NCBI GenBank assembly: GCA_900316305.1 | Contig: ONCM01000025.1 | Span: 1 to 55,853 of the forward strand | Reading direction: 5' to 3' | Length of the DNA: 55,853 bases | Origin: an uncultured Bacteroidales bacterium | GTDB lineage: Bacteria > Bacteroidota > Bacteroidia > Bacteroidales > WCHB1-69 | Notes under the pieces: generated by a model | The model's database searches: none | What the model was told of the DNA's origin: nothing | Seen by the model: only the letters and a program-made list of their open reading frames with translations | In this document: positions 7,725-39,195 of the stretch, piece by piece | Position numbering within the stretch: position 1 is the first letter of the stretch | Layout of the letters: each line of letters starts with the position of its first letter | Program-made: the position numbers and the translations under genes

Positions 7725-8759
7725 TCATTCTACATTCTTCATTAAAAAAATGGTGTCGGTAACGGTGATGGTGTCGTGTAGGACGACGGTGCGGGTGACG
7801 GGAATCTCGCGGGTGATGACCACCGGTTCGGGTTGTAGAGACGTGCCATGGCGTGTCTCTATGGGTGCGGAGACGTTTTCCGCAATCGAGGTATCCGCAA
7901 TAGGGGTCTGTTCCGGTTCCTCTGGTTGTAGAGACGCAAAATTTTGCGTCTCTACACCGGGGGGCATCGCATTTTCCCCCGGTGTATTCCGCACCATCTG
8001 CCACACGCAAATTCCTCCCGCGATGGTGGTTGCGGCAGCAATTACGGCGGCGGTCTTGTGGGTGGCAAGGGCTATTCCCGCACTGACGGGCGAGGCGGCG
8101 ACAGCGGAGCGGATTTCCGCTTCCGAAAGACGGTGTGCGGGGGACATCCGCAGCTGCGACAGCTCAGAACGGTAGAGCCGATCGAGGTGGTGGGCGGAAT
8201 TTCGTTTCATCATGAATAGAAGTGCAATCATAAGCAGTCCTTTCTTTTTGGATTCTTTTTCTTGGGCTTTGATGGCGAGCAGCTGCTGCAGGCGCGTGCG
8301 GGCTCGGAGGAACAGCTGCTTGGAGTTGGTGACGGAGATATCCATCAGGTCGGCAATTTGCTGGTGCGAAACGCGGTCGATGGCGTGGAGGTTGAAGACC
8401 ATGCGTTGTCGTTCAGAGAGTTTCTGGATGGTTTCCAACAGTTCTTGCTTCGTGAATCCGGTCTGCCAGTTGGGTTCGTCTTCCTGGTCGGTGGGGTCGG
8501 GGGTGAGCTCCTCCTCCAACGGCACGGTTTCGGGTCGCGTGCGCAGGTAGGAGATGCACCGGTTGACCGTGATGCGGGTCAGCCAGGCGTCGAAAGGACC
8601 TGTGGCGCGGTAGGTGTCGGCCCGTTCAATGGCCTTCAAGAACGCCTCGTGCGCGAGATCCTCCGCCGTCTGCCGCTCTCCGACATACCGGTAGCATATC
8701 GCCACCAGCCGGTCGATGTTGCCCTCGTACTTCCGTGACCAAAATTTCGTTTTGTCCAT
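7725..8759 (-). CDS. ECF-type sigma-70 factor with C-terminal transmembrane segment and extracytoplasmic tail
   Basis: The 344-aa protein has sigma region 2 at about 12-75 (YRYVGERQTAEDLAHEAFLK, FDAWLTRITVNR) and region 4 at about 107-162 (LSERQRMVFNLHAIDRVSHQ, IADLMDIS). Normal ECF factors end near here. This one continues with a conserved linker (HHLDRLYRSELSQLRMSPAH), one transmembrane helix at about 236-254 (AAVIAAATTIAGGICVW), and an outside tail ending VVLHDTITVTDTIFLMKNVE. Two 28-bp palindromes are read in frame in the tail, as VETQNFASL and IETRHGTSL. The start at 8759 agrees with the paralogue at 10475 and lies downstream of a -7 box at 8790-8797. Tethering would keep the factor inactive until proteolysis, by analogy with membrane-released regulators; that is inference. 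Confidence 0.88.
   Translation of the reverse strand: MDKTKFWSRKYEGNIDRLVAICYRYVGERQTAEDLAHEAFLKAIERADTYRATGPFDAWLTRITVNRCISYLRTRPETVPLEEELTPDPTDQEDEPNWQTGFTKQELLETIQKLSERQRMVFNLHAIDRVSHQQIADLMDISVTNSKQLFLRARTRLQQLLAIKAQEKESKKKGLLMIALLFMMKRNSAHHLDRLYRSELSQLRMSPAHRLSEAEIRSAVAASPVSAGIALATHKTAAVIAAATTIAGGICVWQMVRNTPGENAMPPGVETQNFASLQPEEPEQTPIADTSIAENVSAPIETRHGTSLQPEPVVITREIPVTRTVVLHDTITVTDTIFLMKNVE
7835..7862. repeat. 28-bp palindrome inside sigma factor gene, NcoI-like core
   Basis: The arms GTAGAGACG and CGTCTCTA flank a core with CCATGG, with small departures from perfect symmetry. On the minus strand it is translated as I-E-T-R-H-G-T-S-L in the extracytoplasmic tail. Confidence 0.85.
7928..7955. 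repeat. 28-bp palindrome inside sigma factor gene, core CAAAATTTTG
   Basis: This perfect palindrome is identical in core to the one at 207-234. On the minus strand it encodes V-E-T-Q-N-F-A-S-L just after the transmembrane segment. Confidence 0.9.
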
Positions 8760-8789
8760 TATGCCAAAAGCCTCTATCCAATGATGACG

Positions 8790-8797
8790 CAAAAATA
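8790..8797 (-). promoter_or_regulatory. -7 box of the first tethered sigma factor gene (TATTTTTG)
   Basis: TATTTTTG on the minus strand lies about 30 bp upstream of the ATG at 8759. An upstream in-frame ATG at 8792 overlaps the box and cannot be the start. Confidence 0.6.
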
Positions 8798-10442: not shown

Positions 10443-10450
10443 TATTTTTG
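10443..10450 (+). promoter_or_regulatory. -7 box of the second tethered sigma factor gene (TATTTTTG)
   Basis: TATTTTTG lies 24 bp upstream of the ATG at 10475 and overlaps the upstream in-frame ATG at 10448, supporting the downstream start. Confidence 0.55.
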
Positions 10451-10474
10451 CGTCTTCATTATAAAACAGCAAAA

Positions 10475-11875
10475 ATGCAGGCGAAACAGTTTTGGACGAA
10501 AGCGTATCAGCGGAACATCGGGAAGATGGTCGGGGTGTGCTGCCGCTATGTGGGCGACCGTGCGGTGGCCGAAGACCTCGCGCACGAGGCCTTCCTCAAG
10601 GCTATCGAGAAGTCCGAAACTTACCGCCGCCTCGGCAGCTTCGACGGCTGGCTGATGCGCATCAACCTCAACACCACAATGGATTACCTGCGGCGGCAAC
10701 CACAATTTCTGTCGATGGATGACGATACCGTGGGGACGCGATTTATCGCGTCCGAATCCGATGTTGTAGAGACGTGCCATGGCGCGTCTCTACAGGACGA
10801 ACCTGATGAAACCTGTATCTCCGAATCCGACCTCACCGAATCCGAAATCCTCGATGCCATCTGCGCCCTGCCCGACAAACAACGGGCTGTTTTCAACCTG
10901 TATATTTTTGAAAACCAATCTCATGCGAAAATCGCGGAGACCTTGCAAATCGGGGTGCGCAGTTCCAAACGATACCTCTCGGAGGCGCGAGAGCAGCTGC
11001 AAATCGCCCTGAACAACCTTGTCCGCCACAAAAAATCTGGACTTATGATACTGCTCCCCTTTCTCCCTTGGAAATCGCACGCTATCGACCGTCTCTGCCG
11101 TGCGAAGCTGAAACATCTGGCGTTGTCGCCCGCCGCACCGTCGCCTTTGTCCGCCGTCAACTGGACCGCCGCGCCCAAGCCGGGCGTCTGGATGGCCGTC
11201 ACCGCTGCGAAAGCCCCCGCCATCGCCACGGGTGTGGTCGCCACCGCCGTGACGGGTTCCGTCGTCGCGTGGCAAGCGCAACCCGCACCCACACCCACAG
11301 GCCAGACCCCGCAGGAAACGGCGGTAACCACGTGTGTTTCAACCGATTCCGTAACCGTAAACAACGATACCGTCGTTGTAGAGACGCGGCGCGCCGCGTC
11401 TCTACCGAACACCCCCATATCCGTCGTAGAGACGCACGGCCGTGCGTCTCTACAGGAACCCCAAAATCCTCAACAGCAAGTAAAAGGAACCGAATCATCC
11501 CTTTCACCATTGCCCGCAACGTCCCCGACGTCCGCGCCGGCTTCTAATCATAGCCTGAGGAAGTTCGAGCGCAACGGTTTCCACGGTCTCAAGGACGCAC
11601 GCGGGAACGTGGTCGTATATCCGAAATATTCGGACATACAGCCGTTTGACGAATACCGGACCGGCTGGGCAATGGTGGAGATATTCGGGTTCAAGGGGTT
11701 TGTCGATAGCAGCGGCAAGGAGGTCGTGTCCCCGCAGTACGACGACATCGGGAAGTTCGGGCGATACCGCGACGGCTGCGCATTGGTGCAGAAGGGAAAA
11801 TTCTACGGTTTCATCGACATCACCGGCAAGGAGGTGGTGCCGGTGAAATTTCCGTTGCAAGAATTGACGAAATAA
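10475..11875 (+). CDS. ECF-type sigma-70 factor with transmembrane segment and periplasmic WG repeats
   Basis: The 466-aa protein is a paralogue of the 7725-8759 protein. It has sigma region 2 (CRYVGDRAVAEDLAHEAFLK, about 12-75), region 4 (LPDKQRAVFNLYIFENQSHA, about 125-180), the same post-sigma linker (HAIDRLCRAKLKHLALSPA, about 202-220), and a transmembrane helix at about 248-266 (PAIATGVVATAVTGSVVAW). A Pro/Thr/Ser-rich stretch follows, then WG/KWG-type repeats at about 362-460 (GLKDARGNVVVYPKYSDIQP, FKGFVDSSGKEVVSPQYDDI, FYGFIDITGKEVVPVKF). WG repeats are usually extracytoplasmic, consistent with the topology. Three palindromes are read in frame: one between regions 2 and 4 (VETCHGASL) and two in the outer linker (VETRRAASL, VETHGRASL). 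It is followed by two DUF2807 genes on the same strand. A sensing role is inferred. Confidence 0.88.
   Translation: MQAKQFWTKAYQRNIGKMVGVCCRYVGDRAVAEDLAHEAFLKAIEKSETYRRLGSFDGWLMRINLNTTMDYLRRQPQFLSMDDDTVGTRFIASESDVVETCHGASLQDEPDETCISESDLTESEILDAICALPDKQRAVFNLYIFENQSHAKIAETLQIGVRSSKRYLSEAREQLQIALNNLVRHKKSGLMILLPFLPWKSHAIDRLCRAKLKHLALSPAAPSPLSAVNWTAAPKPGVWMAVTAAKAPAIATGVVATAVTGSVVAWQAQPAPTPTGQTPQETAVTTCVSTDSVTVNNDTVVVETRRAASLPNTPISVVETHGRASLQEPQNPQQQVKGTESSLSPLPATSPTSAPASNHSLRKFERNGFHGLKDARGNVVVYPKYSDIQPFDEYRTGWAMVEIFGFKGFVDSSGKEVVSPQYDDIGKFGRYRDGCALVQKGKFYGFIDITGKEVVPVKFPLQELTK
10766..10793. repeat. 28-bp palindrome inside second sigma factor gene
   Basis: Arms GTAGAGACG and CGTCTCTAC with a CCATGG centre. 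It is read as V-E-T-C-H-G-A-S-L in the linker between sigma regions 2 and 4. A degenerate relative (GGACGCGATTTATCGCGTCC) lies at 10734-10753, read as G-T-R-F-I-A-S. Confidence 0.85.
11378..11405. repeat. 28-bp palindrome, core CGGCGCGCCG
   Basis: Perfect palindrome with an AscI-like centre, read as V-E-T-R-R-A-A-S-L in the extracytoplasmic linker of the second sigma factor. Confidence 0.9.
11426..11453. repeat. 28-bp palindrome, core CACGGCCGTG
   Basis: Perfect palindrome 20 bp after the previous one, read as V-E-T-H-G-R-A-S-L. Two members so close together with different cores argue against simple tandem copying. Confidence 0.9.
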
Positions 11876-28947: not shown

Positions 28948-31539
28948 TCAGTTCTTCAGACAGCGAATTGAATGCCACTGATACCATTGGTTGTAATCAT
29001 CGTTCTCGAAAAACTCACTGGAGGCACTGCCCAACCCATAAAGGTAAGCATAACCTCCGTATGCAGTGCTGTACGAGGCAGTGGAAGTCCAAAAAGCGGC
29101 ATCGCGCCCGAAATCCATGTACTCGCCGCCTGCAGGGTATGCGTTAAACCCTGTCTCGTTGTTTGCTTCCTGAATGTGCCCCACGGTACATGCGGTACCG
29201 TAGTACTGCCAGCCGGATCTGGAAGCCAAGGCCTTGCCAATGGATGCCGCGCTTGTGTTGCAATGGTACTGGTCTTGGCCGCTGACATAGGTTTTCATTG
29301 CCTGCCACTCTGCCCTGCTTGGCAGATGCCATCCGTCAGGACAGACACCTTGTATTCCCGAAGGGACACTGTTACTAGAACCGGCACCATGCATGGCAGC
29401 TTTCCAATTATAGTGAAAACCATAAACATCCACAATGGTGCTGTCCTCGTTGGGATAATAACGGTAATAGTTGTAATTGCTTTCTTCCGTACCGACGGGA
29501 ATGAAAGTGCCATCGGCGAAGTGGGTGGTCCGCAGGTTCTCGGCCATCCAGCATTGCGTACCCAATTGCACGGTGTTATAGACATTCCCGTCGTAATCGG
29601 TGACCGTTGGAGCGTCTGGACAGGTTTGCCCGTAATTCACACGCGCCCGGAACAGGTACTCCTGTCCGTAACTGGTACCGAAACTATTGGTGGCGTATGC
29701 GCGGAGATAGTAGATTGAATCTGCGGAAAGCCCGGTGAGGGTCAGCAGGAAATGGCCGATGGTGTCGCTGACACTGACATGGCTGTCGCTATAAGTAGGG
29801 TTCGGGGAAGTACTCCAACAAACACCCGCATCCATGATGGGAAGGCTGCCGTTATGCAGGATATTTCCGCCCGTCATCACCGACGAATCGGCCACGGCAA
29901 CAACGGAGTCGGTCTCAATCACGGGCAATGTCAGTGTCGTGAAAACCTTCTGTCCTGAGCTATAGCTCGTGCCGACAATGTTCGTGACGAATGTGCGGAC
30001 ATAATACGTGGTGCCGGGCTCAAGTCCCGTGATGACTCCGGAGAAATTGCCGCCTCCTGTCAACGACGAGGTGTTCACGACATACTGATCCGCCAAGGTG
30101 GGGTCCGGAGAGGTGCTCCAACAAAATCCCTTTGCCGAATAAGAGGGGTTGCCATTGGCAATACGACCAGTGGCCCTGACGGACACATTTGTGGTGTCCG
30201 ACAAACTAAGGATATGCGTGGTGAGCAAGTATGCAGATTTGAAAGATGTCACATTGCCGTAAGAGGTGCCAAGTGCATTGGTAGCGTAGGCACGGAGGTA
30301 GTAATTGGTATTTGGGGTAAGCCCTGTCATATCACAGGTGAATGTGTCACCTGTGTCTGTGGAAATCACATGCGGTCCGGATATGGTTGGATAAGGATAG
30401 GATTCAGTACTCCAACAGATTCCTTTTTCAAGGATAGGAAGTCCTCCGTCATCCGTGACGGTGCCTCCGCAAGTTGCGGAATATCCCACGTTATTGGTGA
30501 CCGACGCTGTGGTAACCGTCGGGAGGCTGTTCGGAAGAGTGGTCAGCACCGAATCTTCGCCATAGATGGTTTCAACCGCATTGGAGGCGTATGCACGATA
30601 GTGATAGGTCATGTCGGCGGCGAGGCCGGTGAGTGTAGAGGTGAAAACGCCGATTTCCCCGCCTTCATCGGTATGTGGATCCGACAAGGTAGGGTTGGAT
30701 GCGGTTCCCCAGCAGATACCGCGTGCCGTCACGGGCAACAGTCCGTCGGAGGTCACGGTGCCCTCGCAGACCGCCTCATGGTAGGTCGTGCCGATGCAAC
30801 TGCCCGTCTCCACCGTCAGGTTGGAAGAGATATAGAAAGTGAGAATCACGGTAGAGGAGCCTTCAAACGGTTGCTCCAGTGTTTCGCTGGCGACATAGTT
30901 GCCGTTGGCGAGGAGCATGTAGCCTGTGATGCGGAATATGTCGCCCGGATTATGCGGATGCTCGTCTCGGAAGCCCGACTTCAGCACCCCCGATTCTCCC
31001 AACCAAACGATGCGGTCAGTGCCGCTGCCACCATTATTCAGCATCTTCAAAGAAGCGATATCATTCGAGGTACGCACATTCAGGAGATACGGCTGAGGGG
31101 AGCGCAACCACACCCGGAAGGTATGTTCGCCTGCCGCCAGTCGCTGTGACAAGCCCGTCACCTTACGTCCCGAAAGGTCAACAATCTCAATGTCCACCAA
31201 TTCCGTTTGAGGCAAAGTCATCACGAAATCCGTAACCCCGCTGAAAGGATTTGGGATGTTTTGCGACACGGAGAAGGATCCCGCTTCCGGATGTGTCGGA
31301 ACACCGACATTGGACAGCAGCAGGATGGTGTCTGGGAAAAAGAGCGTGTCCGTCCACCCTTGTGTAACATCCTCCGCCACAATGTGATGCATTTGCACAT
31401 ATCCGCCCGAATTGTCGCGTCCTGTAAAAGCAACCCCATACTGCGCCCACACGGGGAAAGCCAGAGCCAAAAACCAGCAGATGACGAACCATTTTCTGAT
31501 ATCTCTCTTCTCATTCGTTTTTTTGATTGAAATCCTCAT
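28948..31539 (-). CDS. FISUMP-domain surface protein with four FnIII-like repeats and an internal sorting-like domain
   Basis: The 863-aa protein has a signal peptide (WFVICWFLALAFPVWAQ). Next, at about residues 87-170, is a module like a T9SS type A sorting domain (SVSQNIPNPFSGVTDFVMTL, VDIEIVDLSGRKVTGLSQRL), unusual because these are normally C-terminal. Four ~95-aa FnIII-like repeats follow (about 245-650), each with GICW/GVCWST-NPT and a YYLRAYATN-GTSYG ending. The C-terminal ~210 aa form a FISUMP (Fibrobacter succinogenes major paralogous) domain (VTDYDGNVYNTVQLGTQCWM, ENLRTTHFADG, GVCPDGWHLPSRAEW, RCLKN). Surface attachment or substrate binding is inferred. Its promoter is the first ~200-bp block copy (31675-31884), leaving a leader of about 145 nt. 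Confidence 0.85.
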   Translation of the reverse strand: MRISIKKTNEKRDIRKWFVICWFLALAFPVWAQYGVAFTGRDNSGGYVQMHHIVAEDVTQGWTDTLFFPDTILLLSNVGVPTHPEAGSFSVSQNIPNPFSGVTDFVMTLPQTELVDIEIVDLSGRKVTGLSQRLAAGEHTFRVWLRSPQPYLLNVRTSNDIASLKMLNNGGSGTDRIVWLGESGVLKSGFRDEHPHNPGDIFRITGYMLLANGNYVASETLEQPFEGSSTVILTFYISSNLTVETGSCIGTTYHEAVCEGTVTSDGLLPVTARGICWGTASNPTLSDPHTDEGGEIGVFTSTLTGLAADMTYHYRAYASNAVETIYGEDSVLTTLPNSLPTVTTASVTNNVGYSATCGGTVTDDGGLPILEKGICWSTESYPYPTISGPHVISTDTGDTFTCDMTGLTPNTNYYLRAYATNALGTSYGNVTSFKSAYLLTTHILSLSDTTNVSVRATGRIANGNPSYSAKGFCWSTSPDPTLADQYVVNTSSLTGGGNFSGVITGLEPGTTYYVRTFVTNIVGTSYSSGQKVFTTLTLPVIETDSVVAVADSSVMTGGNILHNGSLPIMDAGVCWSTSPNPTYSDSHVSVSDTIGHFLLTLTGLSADSIYYLRAYATNSFGTSYGQEYLFRARVNYGQTCPDAPTVTDYDGNVYNTVQLGTQCWMAENLRTTHFADGTFIPVGTEESNYNYYRYYPNEDSTIVDVYGFHYNWKAAMHGAGSSNSVPSGIQGVCPDGWHLPSRAEWQAMKTYVSGQDQYHCNTSAASIGKALASRSGWQYYGTACTVGHIQEANNETGFNAYPAGGEYMDFGRDAAFWTSTASYSTAYGGYAYLYGLGSASSEFFENDDYNQWYQWHSIRCLKN

Positions 31540-31674
31540 AACTGTTGTATTAAATAATGAATAATTATTCTGGGTACTCTATTTGCAACTGTTCATTTAT
31601 ACAAGTATGATGTAAATAATGCAAATGGTTGCACTTAATCGAAAATTTTTTCAGGTAGGTCTTAGACATCATCC

Positions 31675-31884
31675 CGCTCATTTTTCCGCCGCAAAAATAC
31701 CATCATTTCGCCCACAAAATATTCCGTCATTCCCAAGATATGTTCCGTCTCAACTAAAAATATGACGAGTGGGGTATTATTTGAGGCTTAACGGATAAAA
31801 ACAGCGTTGAAAATCAAGATGTTATCGAAAGTTGTCAATTTTGGAAGTGAGATGGAATAAAGCGGGATTTTGAGAGGCATTAAG
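31675..31884 (-). promoter_or_regulatory. ~200-bp conserved promoter block, copy 1
   Basis: Read on the minus strand, the block ends in the -7 box TATTTTTG (31692-31699). On the plus strand, direct repeats ATATTCCGTC (31719-31728) and ATGTTCCGTC (31740-31749) start 21 bp apart, 19 bp from the box. Further upstream are a conserved ~100-bp A/T-rich stretch and an inverted GATGGAATA (31851-31859). Copies 2 and 3 are at 33240 and 36815. It accounts for most of the 347-bp gap upstream of the FISUMP gene; the rest is leader. Confidence 0.8.
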
Positions 31885-31886
31885 GT

Positions 31887-32051
31887 TCAATGGCAGATTT
31901 TGAAATTCCGGTCCAAGCCGGAAGTAATCATCTGATCATAATCTTTTTGGTCAAACTGTTTCAAGGGTTTGTAACCATACAGCACTCCACAGCCTGCCAG
32001 CAGTATTACGATGGCAAAACACAAAGTTGCAATATGGCTTTTATTCTTCAT
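31887..32051 (-). CDS. Small putative lipoprotein (54 aa)
   Basis: The start at 32051 gives MKNKSHIATLCFAIVILLAG followed by the lipobox Cys, then a short polar tail (YKPLKQFDQKDYDQMITSGL, then DRNFKICH). The longer frame upstream (to 32240) is repeat-derived and is rejected. The gene ends only 3 bp from promoter block copy 1. The function is unknown. Confidence 0.55.
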   Translation of the reverse strand: MKNKSHIATLCFAIVILLAGCGVLYGYKPLKQFDQKDYDQMITSGLDRNFKICH

Positions 32052-32136
32052 AATTCTGTGATGATTTGTTTGATGCGGCGAAGATACTATTTTATTCGTT
32101 CCGTAACTTACACTCACGATGGTATTTGCCTGTACC

Positions 32137-32204
32137 TCGTGCCAGAGGCACGAAATCTCAATAACCCCACACGAAACGAATGGAGTGAGTGCCGTGTGGG
32201 GTAA
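32137..32204. repeat. GAAATCTCAATAACCCC-family repeat, copy upstream of small lipoprotein
   Basis: GTGCCAGAGGCAC hairpin, then GAAATCTCAATAACCCC, then CCCCACAC...GTGTGGGG hairpin. It is nearly the same as the copy at 35343-35406. Confidence 0.85.
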
Positions 32205-32246
32205 GCGGCGGGTACGAAAGGCTGTGTGTCGGAGACACACTACTAT

Positions 32247-33218
32247 TCAATCGCGGACACAACGGACCGAATATCCGCATTTCATACTGCTGAGGTCTCT
32301 GTTTACACGCGCTTCGTTGAAAAACAGGTCGCGGCACCATGCGGAATTGTAAACATCCTGAGTTGCACTCCAAAAGTGAGCATATCGTCCCATATAAAGA
32401 GGCGTAGGAAAACCGGTGTCAAAAAAACCTGCAGGAAAGGCGGAAAAACCCGAAGCGTTGTGGTTGGGATCTGACTCATTGCCAGGTGCCCCCACCTTGG
32501 AGGAAGCGTCCCAACCTTCGCCTGCCAGCTTGCCCGCATGGTCGCCGCGCCAATCGAAATCCGACACATCCATCGCGGTCAGCGTCTGCTCCATCGTTGT
32601 CCACTCCGCATCGCTTGGCAAATGCCAACCCGACGGACAGACACCCTGCACGCCGCTTGGGCTGGCGCTGCTGGAAGCCTCTCCATGCATCGCCGCCGGC
32701 CAGTTATAGTAGTGGCCCAGTTTTTCCAGCGGATGATAAAGGCCGGAGTAGCTGTAATAGTACGGATCGGTCAAACTTGAGTTGAGACATTCGAAGGGAA
32801 TTTCTGTGCCATCGGCATAGTGCGTTGTACGCAGGTTCTCTCTCATCCACAGCTGCCTGCCTATCCATACTGCGTCATAACGGTTGCCGTCGTAATCTAT
32901 CACCGCATCGTGTACAATGGTACCTGTTAAATCCTCGCCGCCAGTCGTGTCGCTGAACATCGCGACGTACTCGGCATCTCCGCACACCACAATCTGGCGC
33001 GGATTGGCGGCATCGCCGTCGTTCCAGCGGATAAAAGAGTGACCTTCCGCAGGTACAGCCGCAATAGTGACCGTTTCGCCATCCTTATAACTGCCTGATC
33101 CTGTAACAGATCCCCATTCTGTGTTGTTGGATTTCACCATGATGGTGTAACTTTTCTTACAGCCCGTCAAGGACAGGAGGAGCACTATGCCCAACATCAA
33201 AATTGATCTTTTTTCCAT
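32247..33218 (-). CDS. FISUMP-domain lipoprotein
   Basis: The 323-aa protein has a lipoprotein signal (MEKRSILMLGIVLLLSLTGC). A ~70-aa small domain follows (KSYTIMVKSNNTEWGSVTGS, GETVTIAAVPAEGHSFIRWN) like the InlB B-repeat/'SVTGSGSYKDGETVTI' modules of surface proteins. The FISUMP domain comes last (VIDYDGNRYDAVWIGRQLWM, ENLRTTHYADGTEIP, GVCPSGWHLPSDAEWTTMEQ, CGYSVRCVRD). The start at 33218 lies 37 bp downstream of the -7 box of promoter block copy 2; the upstream ATG at 33278 lies inside that block. Outer-surface location and ligand binding are inferred. Confidence 0.87.
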   Translation of the reverse strand: MEKRSILMLGIVLLLSLTGCKKSYTIMVKSNNTEWGSVTGSGSYKDGETVTIAAVPAEGHSFIRWNDGDAANPRQIVVCGDAEYVAMFSDTTGGEDLTGTIVHDAVIDYDGNRYDAVWIGRQLWMRENLRTTHYADGTEIPFECLNSSLTDPYYYSYSGLYHPLEKLGHYYNWPAAMHGEASSSASPSGVQGVCPSGWHLPSDAEWTTMEQTLTAMDVSDFDWRGDHAGKLAGEGWDASSKVGAPGNESDPNHNASGFSAFPAGFFDTGFPTPLYMGRYAHFWSATQDVYNSAWCRDLFFNEARVNRDLSSMKCGYSVRCVRD

Positions 33219-33239
33219 TGTATTAAGATACTTGTTAAA

Positions 33240-33449
33240 CGTTATTTTCCGCTGCAAAAATACCATTCTTTCGCCCATAAATGTTCCGTCATCCCTAAAA
33301 TATGTTCCGTCTCAACCAAAAATATGACGAGTGGGGTATTATTTGAGGCTTAACGGATAAAAACAGCGTTGAAAATCAAGATGTTGTCGAAAACCGCCAG
33401 GTTATGGATGTGAGACGGAATAAAGCGGGGTTTTGAGAGGGAATTAAGA
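33240..33449 (-). promoter_or_regulatory. ~200-bp conserved promoter block, copy 2
   Basis: The -7 box TATTTTTG on the minus strand is at 33255-33262. Two identical direct repeats ATGTTCCGTC (33281-33290 and 33302-33311) start 21 bp apart, 18 bp from the box. An inverted GACGGAATA is at 33414-33422. It is nearly identical to copy 1 over 200 bp. It drives the FISUMP lipoprotein gene (ATG 33218). Confidence 0.82.
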
Positions 33450-33474
33450 AAAAAAGACGGCATTTTCGGGTTCG

Positions 33475-34689
33475 TCACACTGACGGGATCCCTTCCTTGA
33501 GAAACTTTCTTAAGGACAAATGAGTGATTCCATTTTCGTCTCTTGTATTCAACAACGGTGTTGCACTGATGACGAATTTCGGGTGATTGTCGCGAATCTT
33601 TTCCAAAGGGCCGAATTCCCGCTTGCGGGTGGACTCTTCGGCTATAATATAGCTCGCCTGAATGTAAACAGTCTTGCCGGGCTTGGTGCAGACGAAATCC
33701 ACCTCCCCTGCATTCAGCACGCCCACCTTCACCTCGTAGCCGAGAAAGCGCAGATGCTTGTAAATGGCATTCTCGATTACTTTCTCAATATAAGAATCCA
33801 TGCCACCCTCCGCTTTGAGATTGCGAAGCCCCAAGTCGTCCCAATAGACCTTTTCTTTGGACTCGAAAATCTTCTTCCCGTGTATGTCGTAACGGGGCAC
33901 GATGTCTAACAGGTAAGCTTCGGCATAGAAGCCCCGATAGAGTAGGACAAGGTTGGCCGACACATTCTCATGTTGCGACTTCATGTATTTGGCAATGCTG
34001 TTGGCCGAGGTGAGTTTGCCGGTGGTATCAGCATAGAAGGCGATGAGGTTGTTTAAGAAGGGGATGTTGCGGATGTCGTGCCGCTCGATGATATCCTTGA
34101 GCATGATCGTATTGAAGACACTGGTGAGATAGGCCCAAACCTGCTCGTCACTGTCAAGCCCCACTTTCCTGAGACCAGGAAGACCGCCGTAGGTCAGATA
34201 AATCATGAGGCTTTCTTCTCTGTCGGGAAGGTTGTGAAATTCCAGAAACTCGGAATAGGTGAGCGGATGGATGCGCACCTCCACATGTCGTCCGGAAATC
34301 AAGGTGGCCAACTCGCCGGAAAGCATCTTGGAATTGCTGCCGGTAATGATGACATCCGTGTTATCCTCTGAGTACCAGTTGCAAATGCTCTCTTCAAAGT
34401 GCTCAATTTCCTGCACCTCGTCAATGAGGATAAAGTTGTGCTTTCCCGGGATGAAGCGTGCTTCAATCCAGTTATCCAAGTCGTCTTTGGTCTTGATGTC
34501 TTTGAACGCCTTCTTTTCCTTGTCTATGAAAATAATATTGACATCCGGCTCATCCTTGTGACGCTGCACAAAGTCTTTGAGAACAAAGCTTTTGCCAACG
34601 CGGCGCGAGCCAACCAAGGCGATGATGTTGCCTTTGCCTATCCACGAATCCACAATATCCGCATAGTGCTTCCTTGTAAGTACTTCCAT
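33475..34689 (-). CDS. AAA_14/DUF4143-type P-loop ATPase
   Basis: The 404-aa protein has Walker A VGSRRVGKSFVLKDF near residue 28, Walker B-like NFILIDEVQEIEHFE, sensor ITGSNSKMLSGELATLISGR and HPLTYSEFLEFHNLP, the signature of the AAA_14 plus DUF4143 family. The C-terminal DUF4143 region has a nuclease-fold-like strand pattern (GEVDFVCTKPGKTVYIQASY), in which the usual catalytic Lys position is Ser/Ala-like, so nuclease activity is doubtful. The family's function is not established. The gene stands alone behind a promoter with two palindromes (34714-34790). The ATG at 34716 overlaps the -7 box, so 34689 is the start. Confidence 0.87.
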   Translation of the reverse strand: MEVLTRKHYADIVDSWIGKGNIIALVGSRRVGKSFVLKDFVQRHKDEPDVNIIFIDKEKKAFKDIKTKDDLDNWIEARFIPGKHNFILIDEVQEIEHFEESICNWYSEDNTDVIITGSNSKMLSGELATLISGRHVEVRIHPLTYSEFLEFHNLPDREESLMIYLTYGGLPGLRKVGLDSDEQVWAYLTSVFNTIMLKDIIERHDIRNIPFLNNLIAFYADTTGKLTSANSIAKYMKSQHENVSANLVLLYRGFYAEAYLLDIVPRYDIHGKKIFESKEKVYWDDLGLRNLKAEGGMDSYIEKVIENAIYKHLRFLGYEVKVGVLNAGEVDFVCTKPGKTVYIQASYIIAEESTRKREFGPLEKIRDNHPKFVISATPLLNTRDENGITHLSLRKFLKEGIPSV

Positions 34690-34713
34690 TTTCCTTTGTA
34701 TTATAACTGGCGG

Positions 34714-34790
34714 CAAAGATAATAATTTTTATTGTCCATAGACAACAAAAATGAAAAAATATGATTTTTATTGTTTATGGACAATAAAAT
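34714..34790 (-). promoter_or_regulatory. Promoter and double palindromic operator of the DUF4143 ATPase gene
   Basis: The -7 box TATCTTTG on the minus strand is at 34714-34721. Overlapping the -33 region is TTTTATTGTCCATAGACAAC (centre about 34738). A second copy, TTTTATTGTTTATGGACAAT, follows about 37 bp away, ending in AAAA. Two near-identical palindromes over the promoter suggest repressor binding. Confidence 0.65.
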
Positions 34791-34856
34791 CGATATTTTG
34801 GGCGAATCAAACAAACAAGACATCCAACACACCGTGTCGAAGGGCATCGGTCCGAA

Positions 34857-35207
34857 CTACTTATACTTCACCAAGTCCCCTTCCGCGTACGGAATCCCTA
34901 TCAGAATGGCGGGGATGTAGGAGAACCGGACGTTCACGATGGCATCTGCCTGTTGCTTCTGCGCCTGCTTCTGCAAAGCATAAACGAGCTGCTTGTTCGA
35001 GGTGAAAATAAATCCGCTTGCTTCCACGTGGCCGATGACCTCGTAGGCCCTGTCGGGCTTCTCTGTGGAATAGTAGCACTGGATGGTCTTCGTTGAGGTG
35101 TCGTTCTTGGCTTTCGGGGTGGTTGACACGAAACTCCCCGTCGCGCAGGAGGTAACCAATATCGCACAAGCGATAAAGAACATTACTCTTTTCATTGCTT
35201 TTTTCAT
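34857..35207 (-). CDS. Small lipoprotein of unknown function
   Basis: The 116-aa protein has MKKAMKRVMFFIACAILVTS and then the lipobox Cys. The mature part includes YEVIGHVEASGFIFTSNKQL and LQKQAQKQQADAIVNVRFSY, an alpha/beta pattern like small stress-related outer-membrane lipoproteins that sum 'ADAIVNV' helices and strands. I cannot name the family with confidence. Its start region is shared with the 28337 gene (see the repeats). A GAAATCTCAATAACCCC-family repeat separates it from the upstream thioredoxin-like lipoprotein gene. Confidence 0.75.
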   Translation of the reverse strand: MKKAMKRVMFFIACAILVTSCATGSFVSTTPKAKNDTSTKTIQCYYSTEKPDRAYEVIGHVEASGFIFTSNKQLVYALQKQAQKQQADAIVNVRFSYIPAILIGIPYAEGDLVKYK

Positions 35208-35235
35208 TGTTGTTATTGATTTTGATGAATGTTGC
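35190..35235. repeat. ~46-bp leader/start-codon sequence shared with 28840-28886 (copy B)
   Basis: Second copy of the 5' sequence described for the 28337 gene. It covers the first four codons and the untranslated leader of the 34857 gene. Confidence 0.8.
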
Positions 35236-35342
35236 TTTTTCGGATTGTCATGCGGTCATAACAACGGTCACAGACACCGTCTTATTATTTCATTAGATAT
35301 ATTTTCCTCAACTATCTTGATTCTCAGCAACTTGCGCCGCAT

Positions 35343-35406
35343 GCCAGAGGTACGAAATCTCAATAACCCCACACGAAACGAACGGAGTAAGTGCCGGGTG
35401 GGGTTT
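35343..35406. repeat. GAAATCTCAATAACCCC-family repeat, copy at end of thioredoxin-like gene
   Basis: GCCAGAGGTAC, GAAATCTCAATAACCCC and CCCCACAC...GGGTGGGG in the same order as the 32137-32204 copy. It overlaps the last codon of the 35405 gene and could act as a terminator hairpin for it. Confidence 0.8.
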
Positions 35407-35962
35407 AAGGAAAAATATCTTCGGCTTTTTCATACGATTGTACTAAATGTTCATTGGAGAACAGCAGAAAACGATGGTGAGAAACACTTTGTAGTTGGTC
35501 GTTCGGAATCAACTCCGACAGAAATCGCTTCATGTATGAATTACAATAGCTGGTTTTATAGTAAAATTCGTTGACACTCAGCATCGGACGAGACAAAAAT
35601 TCATTCTGCAGGAATGCATCTGTGTAATACTCGGTTAAGACATATAAGTTAAGATTCACGCTGTCACAAAAATCTTGAATGGTTTTCAAAGGAATGCAAA
35701 CGCTGCTCGAACAATGAGGTGACCATAGGTATAGTAGCGTGCTTCCGCTTCTTGCCAACAAGACAGACAGTTGATTTGCGGTGATCGCCATGATTTTTCC
35801 GTTATTTTGATCAGGGATTTCATCCACTGAACTCACAAAGCAGATCTTCCCTTGCTCGTCAGCCGGCAATCGTTTGTAACCGCTATTGAAGCCAGGCGTA
35901 TGAATTATGGCACAAGCTTGGAACAGCACAATTAGAGACAGAAATACTAAAACCCTTTTCAT
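35405..35962 (-). CDS. Thioredoxin-fold-like lipoprotein
   Basis: The 185-aa protein starts MKRVLVFLSLIVLFQACAII with a lipobox. A thioredoxin-like strand and first helix follow: STLLYLWSPHCSSSVCIPLK, where W-S-P-H-C resembles the WCxxC start but the second Cys is spaced further (C-S-S-S-V-C). Later parts (LNLYVLTEYYTDAFLQNEFL, RPMLSVNEFYY, HHRFLLFSNEHLV) fit a thioredoxin/AhpC-TSA-like fold. Redox activity is therefore possible but uncertain. It begins 28 bp after the barrel gene (35991) and is probably in its operon, under promoter block copy 3. The start at 35962 is preferred over upstream ATGs. Confidence 0.65.
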   Translation of the reverse strand: MKRVLVFLSLIVLFQACAIIHTPGFNSGYKRLPADEQGKICFVSSVDEIPDQNNGKIMAITANQLSVLLARSGSTLLYLWSPHCSSSVCIPLKTIQDFCDSVNLNLYVLTEYYTDAFLQNEFLSRPMLSVNEFYYKTSYCNSYMKRFLSELIPNDQLQSVSHHRFLLFSNEHLVQSYEKAEDIFP

Positions 35963-35990
35963 AACAGGAGGAGATCTGTCGTGGTAGGTC

Positions 35991-36785
35991 TTATTTCGAT
36001 GTTTTACGCGCCCTCTTTTTGAAACAATGCACGTAAGCGAGCTCAAAACCGATATGGTTGTGACGGTAGCTGTAGGCGCCGTATGCGTTGTCCACTAGCA
36101 GGAATGTGTATTCCCCATGGAACGTGTCCTTAAACGAATAGTTCGCCAGAATGCTGAAGCGAATGAGATCATTATAGGGCAGTTTGTAGTAAAAACCAAG
36201 GTTGAGTTGCAAATCTGCGCGTACTTTGTCGCCATCCAACTCTTCTAAATAGTGCTTATAAGGAGATGTCGGATCATGGCCACCACTAAAAACATGCCAA
36301 CTGAAGAGATTCTCGCCGATGATCTTGGACAGAATACTTTCCCTGACATTGATCAGGTTAACGCCTAGTGCCCCATAAAAGAAGAAGTTGCTATGCATTA
36401 TGGGGTAATGAAACTCTGCTTTGATAGGAATTTGAAATGCATAAACATCAAAGCGCGCATTAGCAGGCCCGATGGGCATATATCCATCACCATCCCACCG
36501 CCACAGCTTCCATTGCGCCTCCGTGCCGTAATTCAAACCAACGGAGACCCCGTAATACTTTGCGAAATGGTAGGAGAACTCCAGTCCAGCCTGCCACCCC
36601 AATGTAGGTTCAGACAATGGTGCGGGCCAGTTTTGTCCGATGGCGACAACCGTCATTCGTTGAGCCAAGTTTCCTTCTCCGGTAATACCGATGTGAAACC
36701 CATCGGGAAACAAAGAACGGTTTTCCTGTCCGTAGGAAACGGAAAGGAGAATCGCAAACAATACGATGAATGGGATTCTTTTCAT
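35991..36785 (-). CDS. Outer-membrane beta-barrel protein
   Basis: The 264-aa protein has a signal peptide (MKRIPFIVLFAILLSVSYGQ). The barrel strands include GFHIGITGEGNLAQ, LGWQAGLEFSYHFAKYYGVS, IPIKAEFHYPIMHSNFFFYG, DLIRFSILANYSF and HNHIGFELAYVHCF. It resembles the barrel of the 5988-7673 protein in order and pattern. It is the first gene downstream of promoter block copy 3 (-7 box 36829-36836), with a leader of about 37 nt. The ATG at 36893 lies inside the promoter block and is rejected. The function is unknown. Confidence 0.78.
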   Translation of the reverse strand: MKRIPFIVLFAILLSVSYGQENRSLFPDGFHIGITGEGNLAQRMTVVAIGQNWPAPLSEPTLGWQAGLEFSYHFAKYYGVSVGLNYGTEAQWKLWRWDGDGYMPIGPANARFDVYAFQIPIKAEFHYPIMHSNFFFYGALGVNLINVRESILSKIIGENLFSWHVFSGGHDPTSPYKHYLEELDGDKVRADLQLNLGFYYKLPYNDLIRFSILANYSFKDTFHGEYTFLLVDNAYGAYSYRHNHIGFELAYVHCFKKRARKTSK

Positions 36786-36814
36786 ATGTGATAATTTAGT
36801 TTGATTATTATCGC

Positions 36815-37023
36815 TCATTTTTCCGCTGCAAAAATACCATCCTTTCGCCCGCAAATATTCCGTCATTTCCAAAATATGTTCCGTCTCAGCCAAAAATATG
36901 ACGGACAGGTTGAATTTTGAGGATTAACGGATGAAAATAGTATTGAAAATCAAGATATTGTCGAAAACCGCCAGGTTGTGGATGTGAGACGGAATAAAGC
37001 GGTAAATTGAGACGGTTTAAGGG
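36815..37023 (-). promoter_or_regulatory. ~200-bp conserved promoter block, copy 3, divergent from the LytTR gene
   Basis: The -7 box TATTTTTG on the minus strand is at 36829-36836. Direct repeats ATATTCCGTC (36855-36864) and ATGTTCCGTC (36876-36885) start 21 bp apart, 18 bp from the box. On the other strand GACGGAATA (36988-36996) and GACGGTTTA (37011-37019) lie 23 bp apart, facing the regulator gene. The intergenic region 36786-37088 holds nothing else but the regulator's promoter. Confidence 0.82.
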
Positions 37024-37055: not shown

Positions 37056-37063
37056 TATCTTTG
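37056..37063 (+). promoter_or_regulatory. -7 box of the LytTR regulator gene (TATCTTTG)
   Basis: TATCTTTG with TTTG 15 bp upstream (37037-37040). It lies 26 bp before the ATG at 37089 and overlaps the upstream in-frame ATG frame starting at 37038, which is therefore rejected. Confidence 0.6.
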
Positions 37064-37088: not shown

Positions 37089-38180
37089 ATGAAAAAACAA
37101 ACGCGCACCATTATCATCGTCCTGCTGAACGTTCTGTTCTGCGCCTACATGCTTTGGTTTTCCGCCCGCAACACCTATCTCCGCCCGTATGCAGGTAGCA
37201 CGACTCGGGAACTGCTGGCGGGACTGATTCTGCTGATCACCTTGTATGCCAACTATTTCCTTCTCTATCCGAAACTCCACAAAAAGCACCCGGTAGTCTA
37301 TTGGGTGGTATTGATTAGCCTTTGTATCATAGCCGCAGCAATTGACTTTGCAATCGCCCATCGCTTTATGATGTATTGCAACGGTGCGATTATTGAAGAA
37401 ATCGGCGCTTCCCGTTTCTTTTTCCATCATTACAAGCTTATAGTGATGCGAAACTTGGCTTTTAACGCTTTTCCGTTTATCTTCCGTGAGCGGCAAGAGC
37501 TACAGAAAGCGCTTGACAAGGAGGTGCAGATTGTCTATCAGGATGCCCGGCTGTTGGATGTGTCTGACAAGGACCACAATGCGCGCCTCATTCCCAGGGA
37601 CAACATCTACTACTGTCAGCAAGACGGGAACTACACCCGTATCTACGTAACGCAGGACGACCTATATTACTCCCGCTACGGCTCCATGAAGTATCTTGAG
37701 CAACTGTTTGGGCCAGAGGAGTTTGTACGCGTCACCAACACATTGCTGATTCCTTACCGATATATCCATTCCTGCAACGGCACCGAGGTGCTCATGAAAC
37801 GGTTACCCTGGCAGAAAGAACCGCTCTCCTTCGCCATCGAGCCCAAGTACCTTGACCAGGCTCCCGGACAGATCGCCCTCTACCTCCTCACCTCCAAGGG
37901 GCAGGAGACCATGAAACCTCCCAAACAAAACCGTAAGAGACGGAAACCTGTCAAACCTTCTCAGGATAAAACAGACGCTGTGCTTCAGTACATTAAGGAG
38001 CACGCGGGCAGCCAGACCAAGGAAATTGCCGAAAACACCCAATTCTCCCCGACCACAGTGGAACGTTGCCTGGCTGAACTCCGCAAGCAGGAGCTCGTCA
38101 CGTACAAGGGGAGCAAGAAAATGGGTGGGTATCACGCGGTCAACCTTCGCGAAACTCCCACCCAAATATCTAATTCCTAA
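37089..38180 (+). CDS. Membrane-embedded LytTR transcription regulator with C-terminal winged helix
   Basis: The 363-aa protein has three to four transmembrane helices (about 8-25, 42-60, 69-92 and possibly 110-131), then a short cytoplasmic helix. A LytTR-type DNA-binding domain is at about 155-238 (RLIPRDNIYYCQQDGNYTRI, YGSMKYLEQLFGPEEFVRVT, NTLLIPYRYIHSC). A basic linker (KQNRKRRKPVKPSQ) leads to a winged-helix domain at about 294-352 (DAVLQYIKEHAGSQTKEIAE, TTVERCLAELRKQELVTYKG). No histidine kinase or receiver domain is present, so sensing and DNA binding seem joined in one protein. The adjacent and nearby promoter blocks have paired 10-bp direct repeats 21 bp apart, the geometry LytTR proteins bind, so it probably controls them and itself; this is inference. 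Confidence 0.82.
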   Translation: MKKQTRTIIIVLLNVLFCAYMLWFSARNTYLRPYAGSTTRELLAGLILLITLYANYFLLYPKLHKKHPVVYWVVLISLCIIAAAIDFAIAHRFMMYCNGAIIEEIGASRFFFHHYKLIVMRNLAFNAFPFIFRERQELQKALDKEVQIVYQDARLLDVSDKDHNARLIPRDNIYYCQQDGNYTRIYVTQDDLYYSRYGSMKYLEQLFGPEEFVRVTNTLLIPYRYIHSCNGTEVLMKRLPWQKEPLSFAIEPKYLDQAPGQIALYLLTSKGQETMKPPKQNRKRRKPVKPSQDKTDAVLQYIKEHAGSQTKEIAENTQFSPTTVERCLAELRKQELVTYKGSKKMGGYHAVNLRETPTQISNS

Positions 38181-38184
38181 CAGA

Positions 38185-39195
38185 TTAGAATCGATTTACC
38201 CACTCCGCCACTTCCGTTGCGGAGATGTTTTTCATGCACTTGAAGTGTTTCCGCTTGCATTTGGAGCTGCCGAACTTGGAACAGGGACGGCAACGGAGCG
38301 GACAAACTTCGAAATTGCGGAATAAATTGCGCTCGCCGGGCATATAAGGATAGTAGCCGTATTCGGGAATGGTGGAACCGAAAATGGCGGCGGTCGGCTT
38401 ATGTAATGCCGCTGAGATGTGCATCAAGCCAGTGTCGCCAGTAATCACGCAATCAGCATGTTGCAAGATAGCTGCCGACTGGTAGAGGGAATATTTCCCG
38501 CAGCCGTTGGTGGCGCGCTCGCCCAGTTGCGACACAACCTGCTCGCCTTCCTCGAACACATCCTTGCCGCCCAACAGCATGATGGGCTTGTGTAGAATGC
38601 TCGCAATCTCCACCACTTTGGAGACCGGAATGCGCTTGGTGAAATGCTGGGCCGCCAACACGATAGCCACGAATCCGTCGTCGAACATCATCGGCAAATC
38701 GTCCTCTTCAAAACCTTGGTTTTCAGGAATGTAAAACTCCAAACCTTTGTGGTCGTTGTGTACATTCAGCATCTTCACGGCCTCGAAGTAGCGCTCCACG
38801 ATATGCGTCTCAGGCAGGCCGTTCATCTTCAAACGATAGCACATCCATTTGGAGAAGTTGTGCTTGTTGAAGGTGTAGGACGGGCATTTCAGACGGCGCA
38901 CGACCTGACGCGAACGAAGGGTCTTCTGCAGGTCAATCACCACTTCGAATTGCTCGTTTTTCAATTCCTCGATGGTTTGACTTACATTTTCGGGATCGTA
39001 AGCGTGCACTTTGTGAATGTGCGGATTGGTCTCCACGACAGGCACATAGTCTTTTCTAACCAAATAGTGGACTTCCATTTGCGGCAACTGTTCGTTCACC
39101 GCTCTGACAACGGGCGTGGTCAACACGATGTCTCCAATGGAGCTAAGCCGGATAATTAAAATCTTTGATTGCGACGGGGGTTGTATATCATCCAT
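38185..39195 (-). CDS. Glycosyltransferase family 9 (heptosyltransferase-like)
   Basis: The 336-aa protein has ILIIRLSSIGDIVLTTPVVR at the N-terminus, VVIDLQKTLRSRQVVRRLKC, FVAIVLAAQHFTKRIPVSKV, PIMLLGGKDVFEEGEQVV and DCVITGDTGLMHISAALHKP, all typical of GT9 ADP-heptose:LPS heptosyltransferases. It acts on the inner face of the cytoplasmic membrane in LPS core or similar glycan assembly. A Cys-rich end (CPLRCRPCSKFGSSKCKRKH, then FKCMK) is common in Bacteroidetes members. It follows the acyltransferase gene after 14 bp, so they form an operon of envelope lipid/glycan functions. Confidence 0.93.
   Translation of the reverse strand: MDDIQPPSQSKILIIRLSSIGDIVLTTPVVRAVNEQLPQMEVHYLVRKDYVPVVETNPHIHKVHAYDPENVSQTIEELKNEQFEVVIDLQKTLRSRQVVRRLKCPSYTFNKHNFSKWMCYRLKMNGLPETHIVERYFEAVKMLNVHNDHKGLEFYIPENQGFEEDDLPMMFDDGFVAIVLAAQHFTKRIPVSKVVEIASILHKPIMLLGGKDVFEEGEQVVSQLGERATNGCGKYSLYQSAAILQHADCVITGDTGLMHISAALHKPTAAIFGSTIPEYGYYPYMPGERNLFRNFEVCPLRCRPCSKFGSSKCKRKHFKCMKNISATEVAEWVNRF

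Follow-up and report, generated by a model that had tools for sequence, protein, structure and literature searches.

Duplicated promoter blocks with 21-bp direct repeats as probable operators of a membrane-anchored LytTR/winged-helix regulator in an uncultured Bacteroidales bacterium

Contig ONCM01000025.1 of assembly GCA_900316305.1, which stems from an uncultured Bacteroidales bacterium of the lineage WCHB1-69 and whose 55,853 nucleotides are referred to below as the window, contains three blocks of about 200 bp that resemble each other closely and precede different genes. Each block carries two ATRTTCCGTC repeats whose starts lie exactly 21 bp apart. Which factor reads these repeats, and how did the same control region come to precede different genes? 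Sequence comparisons within the window and across the genus indicate that the blocks very probably are the operator-promoters of a membrane-anchored LytTR/winged-helix regulator encoded divergently from block 3, an estimate that refers to the pairing of regulator and blocks and not to the sign of regulation. Blocks 1 and 2 look like copies of the bidirectional control region of block 3 before two FISUMP genes, which together would make a local three-promoter regulon. The blocks and their elements are as follows.

31675–31884, minus strand: block 1, the copy before the FISUMP/fn3 gene (alignment, pattern scan)
31719–31728 and 31740–31749, minus strand: repeats of block 1
31692–31699, minus strand: box TATTTTTG of block 1
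33240–33449, minus strand: block 2, the copy before the FISUMP lipoprotein-like gene (alignment, pattern scan)
33281–33290 and 33302–33311, minus strand: repeats of block 2
33255–33262, minus strand: box TATTTTTG of block 2
36815–37023, no strand assigned: block 3, bidirectional control region flanked by the regulator gene and the barrel operon (alignment)
36829–36836, minus strand: -7 box TATTTTTG of the barrel operon (sequence read-back)
36855–36864, minus strand: proximal putative operator repeat GACGGAATAT of block 3 (sequence read-back, pattern scan)
36876–36885, minus strand: second putative operator repeat GACGGAACAT of block 3, 21 bp upstream (sequence read-back, pattern scan)
36890–36903, minus strand: distal half-similar element CGTCATATTTTTGG of block 3 (sequence; seen in most aligned homologous promoters)

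An earlier, sequence-only reading of this stretch had described the three blocks with their 21-bp repeats, -7 boxes and inverted GAYGGAAT(A) motifs, and all of these were read back from the sequence where it had placed them. The repeats indeed lie two helical turns apart and directly upstream of the -7 box, and the proposed duplication of the control region is borne out by alignment, in which block 1 shares 89% and block 3 85% identity with block 2 over about 200 bp. Towards the gene, the minus strand of each block presents CGTCATATTTTTGG (TAG in block 1), GACGGAACAT, GACGGAA(T/C)AT and TATTTTTG in this order, with 18–19 bp between the proximal repeat and the box in all three blocks. The first of these, a half-similar element located about one step further upstream than the repeats (CGTCATATTTTTGG or its variant ending in TAG), had been overlooked, as had a second inverted repeat that block 3 holds towards the regulator gene.

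The exact doublet pattern occurs three times in the organism's own 3.28-Mb genome, in all cases at the three blocks, and its reversed control pattern not at all. Five 17-bp half-sites with at most three mismatches were found in the window, all of them within the blocks, where 100 shuffles gave a mean of 0.16. With up to two mismatches allowed in the doublet, 72 matches were obtained in the genome versus 29 for the reversed control; the exact ones are those at the three blocks, and the remaining 69 are taken for mainly unrelated sequences. A regulon scattered over the genome was thus ruled out, the exact doublet being confined to the three blocks. The genome contains 12 LytTR matches, and looser forms of the doublet adjoin two other LytTR genes (on contigs C55 and C23), for which reason the analysis was extended to the gene family.

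The gene divergent from block 3, which the sequence-only reading had missed, encodes the proposed regulator:

37089–38180, plus strand: proposed regulator of 363 amino acids with a hydrophobic N-terminus, a LytTR domain (amino acids 166–235) and a winged helix (amino acids 298–338) (Pfam, hydropathy)

In the Pfam scan, the LytTR domain was matched with an E-value of 2.7e-6 (27.9 bits against a curated cut-off of 22.6) and the winged helix as HTH_24 with 2.9e-5, also above the curated cut-off. Homologues were collected as 113 open reading frames (ORFs) in 110 loci, 105 of which were kept (at least 300 amino acids and at least 190 bp of upstream sequence); these comprised 69 close and 36 distant homologues, reduced by similarity to 43 and 33. 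All 43 non-redundant close homologues have a LytTR match at E<=0.01, and most also match a family of the winged-helix type (MarR_2 in 36/43). Three hydrophobic segments were scored in the window protein; by hydropathy only, all 43 homologues have two to four such segments in the first 170 amino acids and none after. Judged by hydropathy and Pfam, membrane segments and a DNA-binding domain are thus combined in one chain, as in transmembrane one-component regulators. No receiver domain is among the seven Pfam families of the window protein, nor among the 25 of 28 families listed for the 43 homologues, and on this basis the protein does not qualify as a two-component LytTR response regulator. A search of the window protein against solved structures with phmmer gave no hits; the family profile weakly matched three chains, all within the winged helix. 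The next gene downstream (38185–39195) lies on the opposite strand and encodes a glycosyltransferase, and a separate membrane partner protein of the LRS type was not found in the regulator's operon, a partner elsewhere being possible.

At least one relative of the regulator gene is present in 39 of 40 genomes of the same genus, the own genome included. Among 247 genomes drawn evenly from the order, at least four of which belong to the genus, a match at E<=1e-20 was obtained in four, three of them from the genus and one, weak, from another family. Close paralogous regulators of this membrane-LytTR-winged-helix type number up to seven per genome, or up to eleven when distant and partial ones are included. 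In one of these genomes a close regulator is seen as two overlapping pieces in different frames (G050:C85:55909-56965), and its promoter still gave a strong hit in the search described below.

The repeats are linked to this gene family throughout the genus. In a motif-free scan of the 450 bp upstream of the 43 regulators, direct repeats matching in 10 of 12 positions occurred at an offset of 21 bp in 21 loci and of 22 bp in 10, the average over offsets 13–79 being 1.3 loci; with 12 of 14 positions, the corresponding numbers were 11, 4 and 0.5. When a TAnnTTTG box facing away from the regulator was required 15–55 bp downstream of the doublet, 28 of the 43 loci had a 21-bp doublet facing the divergent gene (dinucleotide shuffles: mean 0.10, maximum 1), and three had one with a box facing the regulator. 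Allowing 20–22 bp raised the count facing the divergent gene to 33/43 (shuffles 0.22). With a weaker match (9 of 14) at 20–22 bp, 63 of the 69 close loci qualified, a count that the shuffle controls, made for the 43- and 33-locus counts, do not cover; in 40 of these 63 the box and the regulator's first in-frame ATG are 238–255 bp apart (counted from the list).

Genome scans with a promoter model built from the sequences of 36 promoters led to the same association. The model search scored 150 of about 660–2500 candidates per genome, which makes all hit counts lower bounds, and hits were called strong at E<1e-9 in a scan of 12 genomes and at E<1e-6 in a scan of 16. In the window, the three blocks scored E 4e-16 or better and nothing else fell below 0.003. 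The 12 genomes yielded at least 52 strong hits, followed by a gap in E-values from 2.7e-10 to 1.5e-6. Of the 52, 40 stand divergent to a close regulator at a distance of less than 600 bp, and all 40 regulators counted have such a hit among the matches listed; 19 of these 40 loci were training loci by hand count. The 40 include three partial or broken regulators, with the two pieces at G050:C85 merged as one by coordinates only, and leave aside contig-end fragments (G002:C34, G002:C131, G012:C55, G046:C67) and distant homologues. In the 16 genomes without training loci, whose loci may nevertheless be close relatives of the training loci, inspection by eye found an adjacent hit at 9 of 11 close regulators (among the matches listed); likewise by eye, 9 of 12 strong hits were regulator-adjacent and eight of the nine genomes without a close regulator had no strong hit.

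The window's own genome has eight strong hits, five of which adjoin its five close regulators while three are satellites, i.e., not regulator-adjacent (blocks 1 and 2, and C55:17717). The sequence-only reading had named more copies in a genome scan as support. The family model adds five strong hits to the three blocks, of which four lie divergent to genes of paralogous regulators and the fifth is another satellite; the exact doublet is found at the three blocks only. Among all 52 strong hits, 12 are satellites. Six of these have a regulator within 8 kb on their contig, and each is most similar to that regulator's operator among those compared (complete sets of linked operators for G000, G002, G012, G013, G017 and G046, three of seven for G050). 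Four others lie on contigs without a counted regulator, one of these satellites being nearly identical to a linked operator on another contig of its genome (G012:C48, C97); the genomes are split over many contigs, and satellite linkage is readable within one contig.

In an alignment of GACGGAA-type blocks (15 rows), satellites retain the regulator-facing half, including TTTAT(T/C)CC(G/A)TCTCA. Blocks 1 and 2 stand behind genes of the same strand, and their regulator-facing half therefore serves no divergent gene. It is apparently a remnant of block duplication, or else belongs to a loop. For the inverted upstream motif, the best reading is that of a regulator-side site, directed towards the regulator gene in block 3 and lacking a divergent gene in blocks 1 and 2. 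The C55 satellite apparently shares the promoter part only (by eye).

Three genes of the window would be controlled by the blocks:

28948–31539, minus strand: target 1, protein of 863 amino acids with fn3 and FISUMP domains (Pfam)
32247–33218, minus strand: target 2, FISUMP protein of 323 amino acids with a lipoprotein-like N-terminus (Pfam; lipobox-like start by eye)
35991–36785, minus strand: target 3, outer-membrane-barrel-like protein, first gene behind block 3 (Pfam, weak, below curated cut-offs)

The earlier assignment of a FISUMP/fn3 and a FISUMP gene was confirmed, while that of an outer-membrane barrel corresponds to a weak Pfam match below the curated cut-offs; of the surface proteins expected behind the blocks, two are thus clear and the third is probable. 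Across the family, the first target ORF was located in 64 of the 69 close loci, which were not de-duplicated. A few of the ORF picks are doubtful (L134, L155, L156, L164). Pfam was run on 60 of the 64, with four doubtful ORFs left out, and gave 12 fn3, seven secretion-system C-terminal sorting domains, four FISUMP, two BspA-type leucine-rich repeats and two outer-membrane barrels; C-terminal domains are undercounted because the locus ends within many of the target ORFs. By a crude N-terminus rule, 62/64 have a lipobox or hydrophobic leader, and 25/64 are, by our own reading, short lipoproteins of one kind, mostly of 162–177 amino acids.

Separately, the 5' leader of the block-1 gene contains a 43-bp element (TGCAACC...TCATAC...ATAAATGAAC; 31591–31633, minus strand), and by eye similar elements exist in leaders of the relatives L055, L060, L067 and L068, the latter two without the doublet. 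It resembles an extracytoplasmic function (ECF) sigma factor -35 element and is a candidate for one; as the mark of a second regulon it was dropped, given its single occurrence in this genome. Two ORFs elsewhere in the window (7725–8792 and 10448–11875) have, by eye, ECF-sigma-like N-termini and a longer C-terminal part.

The aligned promoter variants broadly share one layout of a CATATTT-type half-similar element, two repeats and the box, whose TA..TTTG is invariant in the alignment (A3), the rows having been chosen for having it. The repeat core varies between paralogues (GACGGAA, GAGGGAA, GAAGGAA, GGGGGTT, GGGGCAA, GATGCGA and others), and the two repeats within a locus are more alike than they are to the repeats of other loci in 29 of 36 cases (0/5000 permutations). 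The distal element co-varies weakly with its neighbour, in 17 or 19 of 36 loci (263/5000 permutations for 10 bp, 91/5000 for the core); a full third site of equal specificity was rejected for this reason, and the element is reported as half-similar. With the membrane domain of the same proteins as internal control, the distance between operators correlated with that between LytTR domains (r 0.42; 0.38 given the membrane domain, 0/2000 permutations) and not with that between membrane domains given LytTR (r -0.06). Operator divergence thus follows the LytTR domain and not the membrane domain. Amino acids 246, 228, 180 and 216 of the regulator are among the alignment columns with the strongest association to the operator.

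The other half of block 3 and the sequence between it and the regulator gene bear their own set of sites on the plus strand:

36948–36960, plus strand: IHF-like match AATCAAGATATTG in the centre, with an operator set on either side (pattern match)
36986–36995, plus strand: regulator-facing repeat GAGACGGAAT (sequence read-back)
37009–37018, plus strand: second regulator-facing repeat GAGACGGTTT, 23 bp on (sequence read-back)
37056–37063, plus strand: -7 box TATCTTTG of the regulator gene (sequence read-back)

The pair GAGACGGAAT/GAGACGGTTT faces the regulator's own TATCTTTG box, located 37 bp further on. Some other loci have a similar pair, offsets of 19 and of 22–24 bp each being seen in 2–5 of the 43. 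One subgroup (L112, L115, L144, L152, L158 and others) has a regulator-facing palindrome, TTTAATACCCC...GGGGTATTAAA, in place of the direct pair, and in L107 and L097 the short tandem repeats TGAGACTTGAGACT and TTGAACCTTGAA lie just behind the target promoter, upstream of the regulator. Between the operator sets, at 36948–36960 of the window and in homologous loci, there is a conserved TTGATAATCAATATTTT-like element, which resembles the IHF consensus. On the regulator strand, WATCARNNNNTTR was found here in 10/35 loci (shuffles: mean 1.1, maximum 5) and on the other strand an IHF-like match in 7/35 (1.1, maximum 4); a looser pattern matched in 11/35 (3.4, maximum 9), nine of these at 111–114 bp from the -7 box.

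We infer the following course of events. Each of the direct repeats would be bound by one LytTR domain, so that the domains sit on one face of the DNA at a distance of two helical turns, close to the -33 region or covering it. The membrane domain would sense an envelope or extracellular cue, upon which the promoter with the TATTTTTG box would be switched on. The second, opposite-facing repeat pair upstream of the regulator's own promoter may provide autoregulation, and blocks 1 and 2 may have arisen by duplication of the whole bidirectional region, which would have brought the two FISUMP genes under the same regulator.

The sign of regulation is probably activation. Repression by the same regulator at the same sites, with a LytTR array blocking the -33 region until the signal releases it, is a less probable but real possibility: the proximal repeats of the window, whose ends are 19 bp away from the -7 box, cover the -33 position, and repression is known for CoxC, a LytTR regulator of the membrane whose three repeats overlap the -35 region (PMC11347149). 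The same paper states that RcoM1, like most LytTR regulators, acts as an activator from sites upstream of -35, and the LRS repeats likewise lie upstream of -35 in an activating role (PMC6193735). The -33 motif TTTG was found in none of 36 target promoters; its absence was rejected as a sign of activation, as the regulator promoters mostly lack it too (40 of 42). It is also conceivable, if unlikely, that the 21-bp repeats are read by the C-terminal winged helix in place of the LytTR domain. In the structure model the winged helix is the sole confident part; it matches a winged-helix family in most homologues and correlates with operator distance, but the correlation for LytTR given the winged helix (0.24, 2/2000 permutations) exceeds the converse (0.14, 135/2000), and direct repeats 20–22 bp apart are the layout known for LytTR.

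Two further explanations dispense with the linked regulator. An unlinked factor might bind the repeats and control the LytTR genes too, regulators and operators then both being targets of a third factor; this is very unlikely, since paralogue-specific letters that track the LytTR domain of the linked gene are hard to fit with one common factor. Least probable is a duplicated or mobile repeat resembling a miniature inverted-repeat transposable element (MITE), with a chance promoter and no dedicated regulator. It would fit the extent of the homology, whose approximately 200 bp span the regulator-facing half, without a divergent gene in blocks 1 and 2. Against it stand the mere three exact doublets in the genome, the divergent position of 40 of the 52 family hits relative to members of a single gene family, and the co-variation of repeats within loci. 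The sequence-only reading had named blocks scattered without relation to gene starts as the outcome that would contradict it; no such dispersed copies emerged from the genome scans, and a dispersed repeat was rejected.

Several observations weigh against pairing the blocks with the divergent LytTR regulator. In the AlphaFold model (seven sequences, 81–93% identical to the first; mean predicted local distance difference test score 51), the winged helix alone is confident and the LytTR part is of low confidence. Operator distance is also correlated with the winged helix (r 0.37, or 0.33 with the membrane domain accounted for, 0/2000), and the permutations for co-variation and distance leave locus kinship in. 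By the stated rule, 15 of the 43 loci have no 21-bp doublet and 10 have none at 20–22 bp, nine have a 20–22-bp doublet facing the regulator, and the 33 distant homologues have none at 21 bp and three at 20–22 bp (shuffles 0.27, maximum 3). Regulator, intergenic region and target may have been inherited as one cassette, in which case the loci are not independent. Two of the 11 close regulators in non-training genomes (G040, G051) lack a hit, G011 has a strong hit without a close regulator and holds two regulator fragments at contig edges, and two satellites on G046:C34, 15–16 kb from a regulator, are unlike both linked operators compared.

With the LytTR/winged-helix regulator as the probable reader of the blocks, the relatives in the ruminant gut most likely carry many regulator-operator pairs, each with its own sequence code and mostly before surface-protein genes. 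A more far-reaching scheme joins insulated 'private-line' switches, regulon growth by block copying, a membrane-anchored loop and joint use of both DNA-binding domains, and is put forward only tentatively as a whole. In it, each regulator would have an operator code and targets of its own, the latter being surface adhesins, lipoproteins or proteins of the type IX secretion system (T9SS) type; copying of the whole bidirectional block of about 200 bp before another surface gene would enlarge the regulon; and the opposed operator sets would form, with the central bending site, a loop controlling both genes. Apart from this scheme, the analysis ties an uncharacterised membrane regulator family of ruminant-gut Bacteroidales to probable operators and surface-protein targets. 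The family offers dozens of natural regulator-operator pairs in which the letters vary and the geometry is nearly fixed, which makes the LytTR DNA-recognition code directly testable, and it suggests the copying of a complete bidirectional control block as a possible route of regulon growth.

The sequence-only reading had considered the regulon undescribed. This holds poorly for its operators: direct repeats of about 9–10 bp at a distance of 20–22 bp close to the target promoter correspond to the layout already known for LytTR, and the likely regulator lies beside block 3. In searches of open-licence papers, no mention was found of a membrane-LytTR-winged-helix chain with a divergent surface-gene target, of this genus, of paralogue-specific operators or of spread by block duplication. 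According to the excerpts available, LRS operons have 9-bp repeats with 11–13-bp spacers upstream of -35, a separate membrane protein in the operon and repeats that serve autoregulation, and LRS-like operons of Bacteroides thetaiotaomicron and B. ovatus encode membrane-spanning LytTR regulators and have 11-bp repeats, an 11-bp spacer and TATCTTTG boxes (PMC6193735). CoxC is a membrane MHYT-LytTR repressor with three direct repeats every 18–21 bp, and RcoM1 binds a repeat triplet with 12–13-bp spacers, both in PMC11347149. The repeat spacing of the blocks is as in all these systems, and the presumed mode of DNA binding is therefore a known one.

As far as these partial texts go, the system described here shares with the LRS and LRS-like operons of Bacteroides a LytTR regulator, direct repeats just upstream of the promoter and the TATCTTTG -7 box, and with the LRS-like ones also several membrane segments before the DNA-binding domain. 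It differs from LRS in lacking a partner gene behind the regulator, in the direction of the conserved pair, which is towards a divergent gene, and in having a C-terminal winged helix and extra target promoters; it was not filed as LRS because the defining membrane protein is absent from the operon. CoxC and RcoM1 likewise combine a LytTR regulator with direct repeats at the promoter, and in CoxC a membrane sensor domain belongs to the same polypeptide, but both are CO-responsive with three full repeats, no winged helix is mentioned in the excerpts, and CoxC represses. A survey of transmembrane transcription regulators (TTR), one-component regulators that act from the membrane, found them enriched in Bacteroidota (PMC10269533). 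The proposed regulator agrees with these in being one-component, membrane-acting and from Bacteroidota, whereas the available part of the survey names LytTR for Alphaproteobacteria only and describes no operators of the kind found here.

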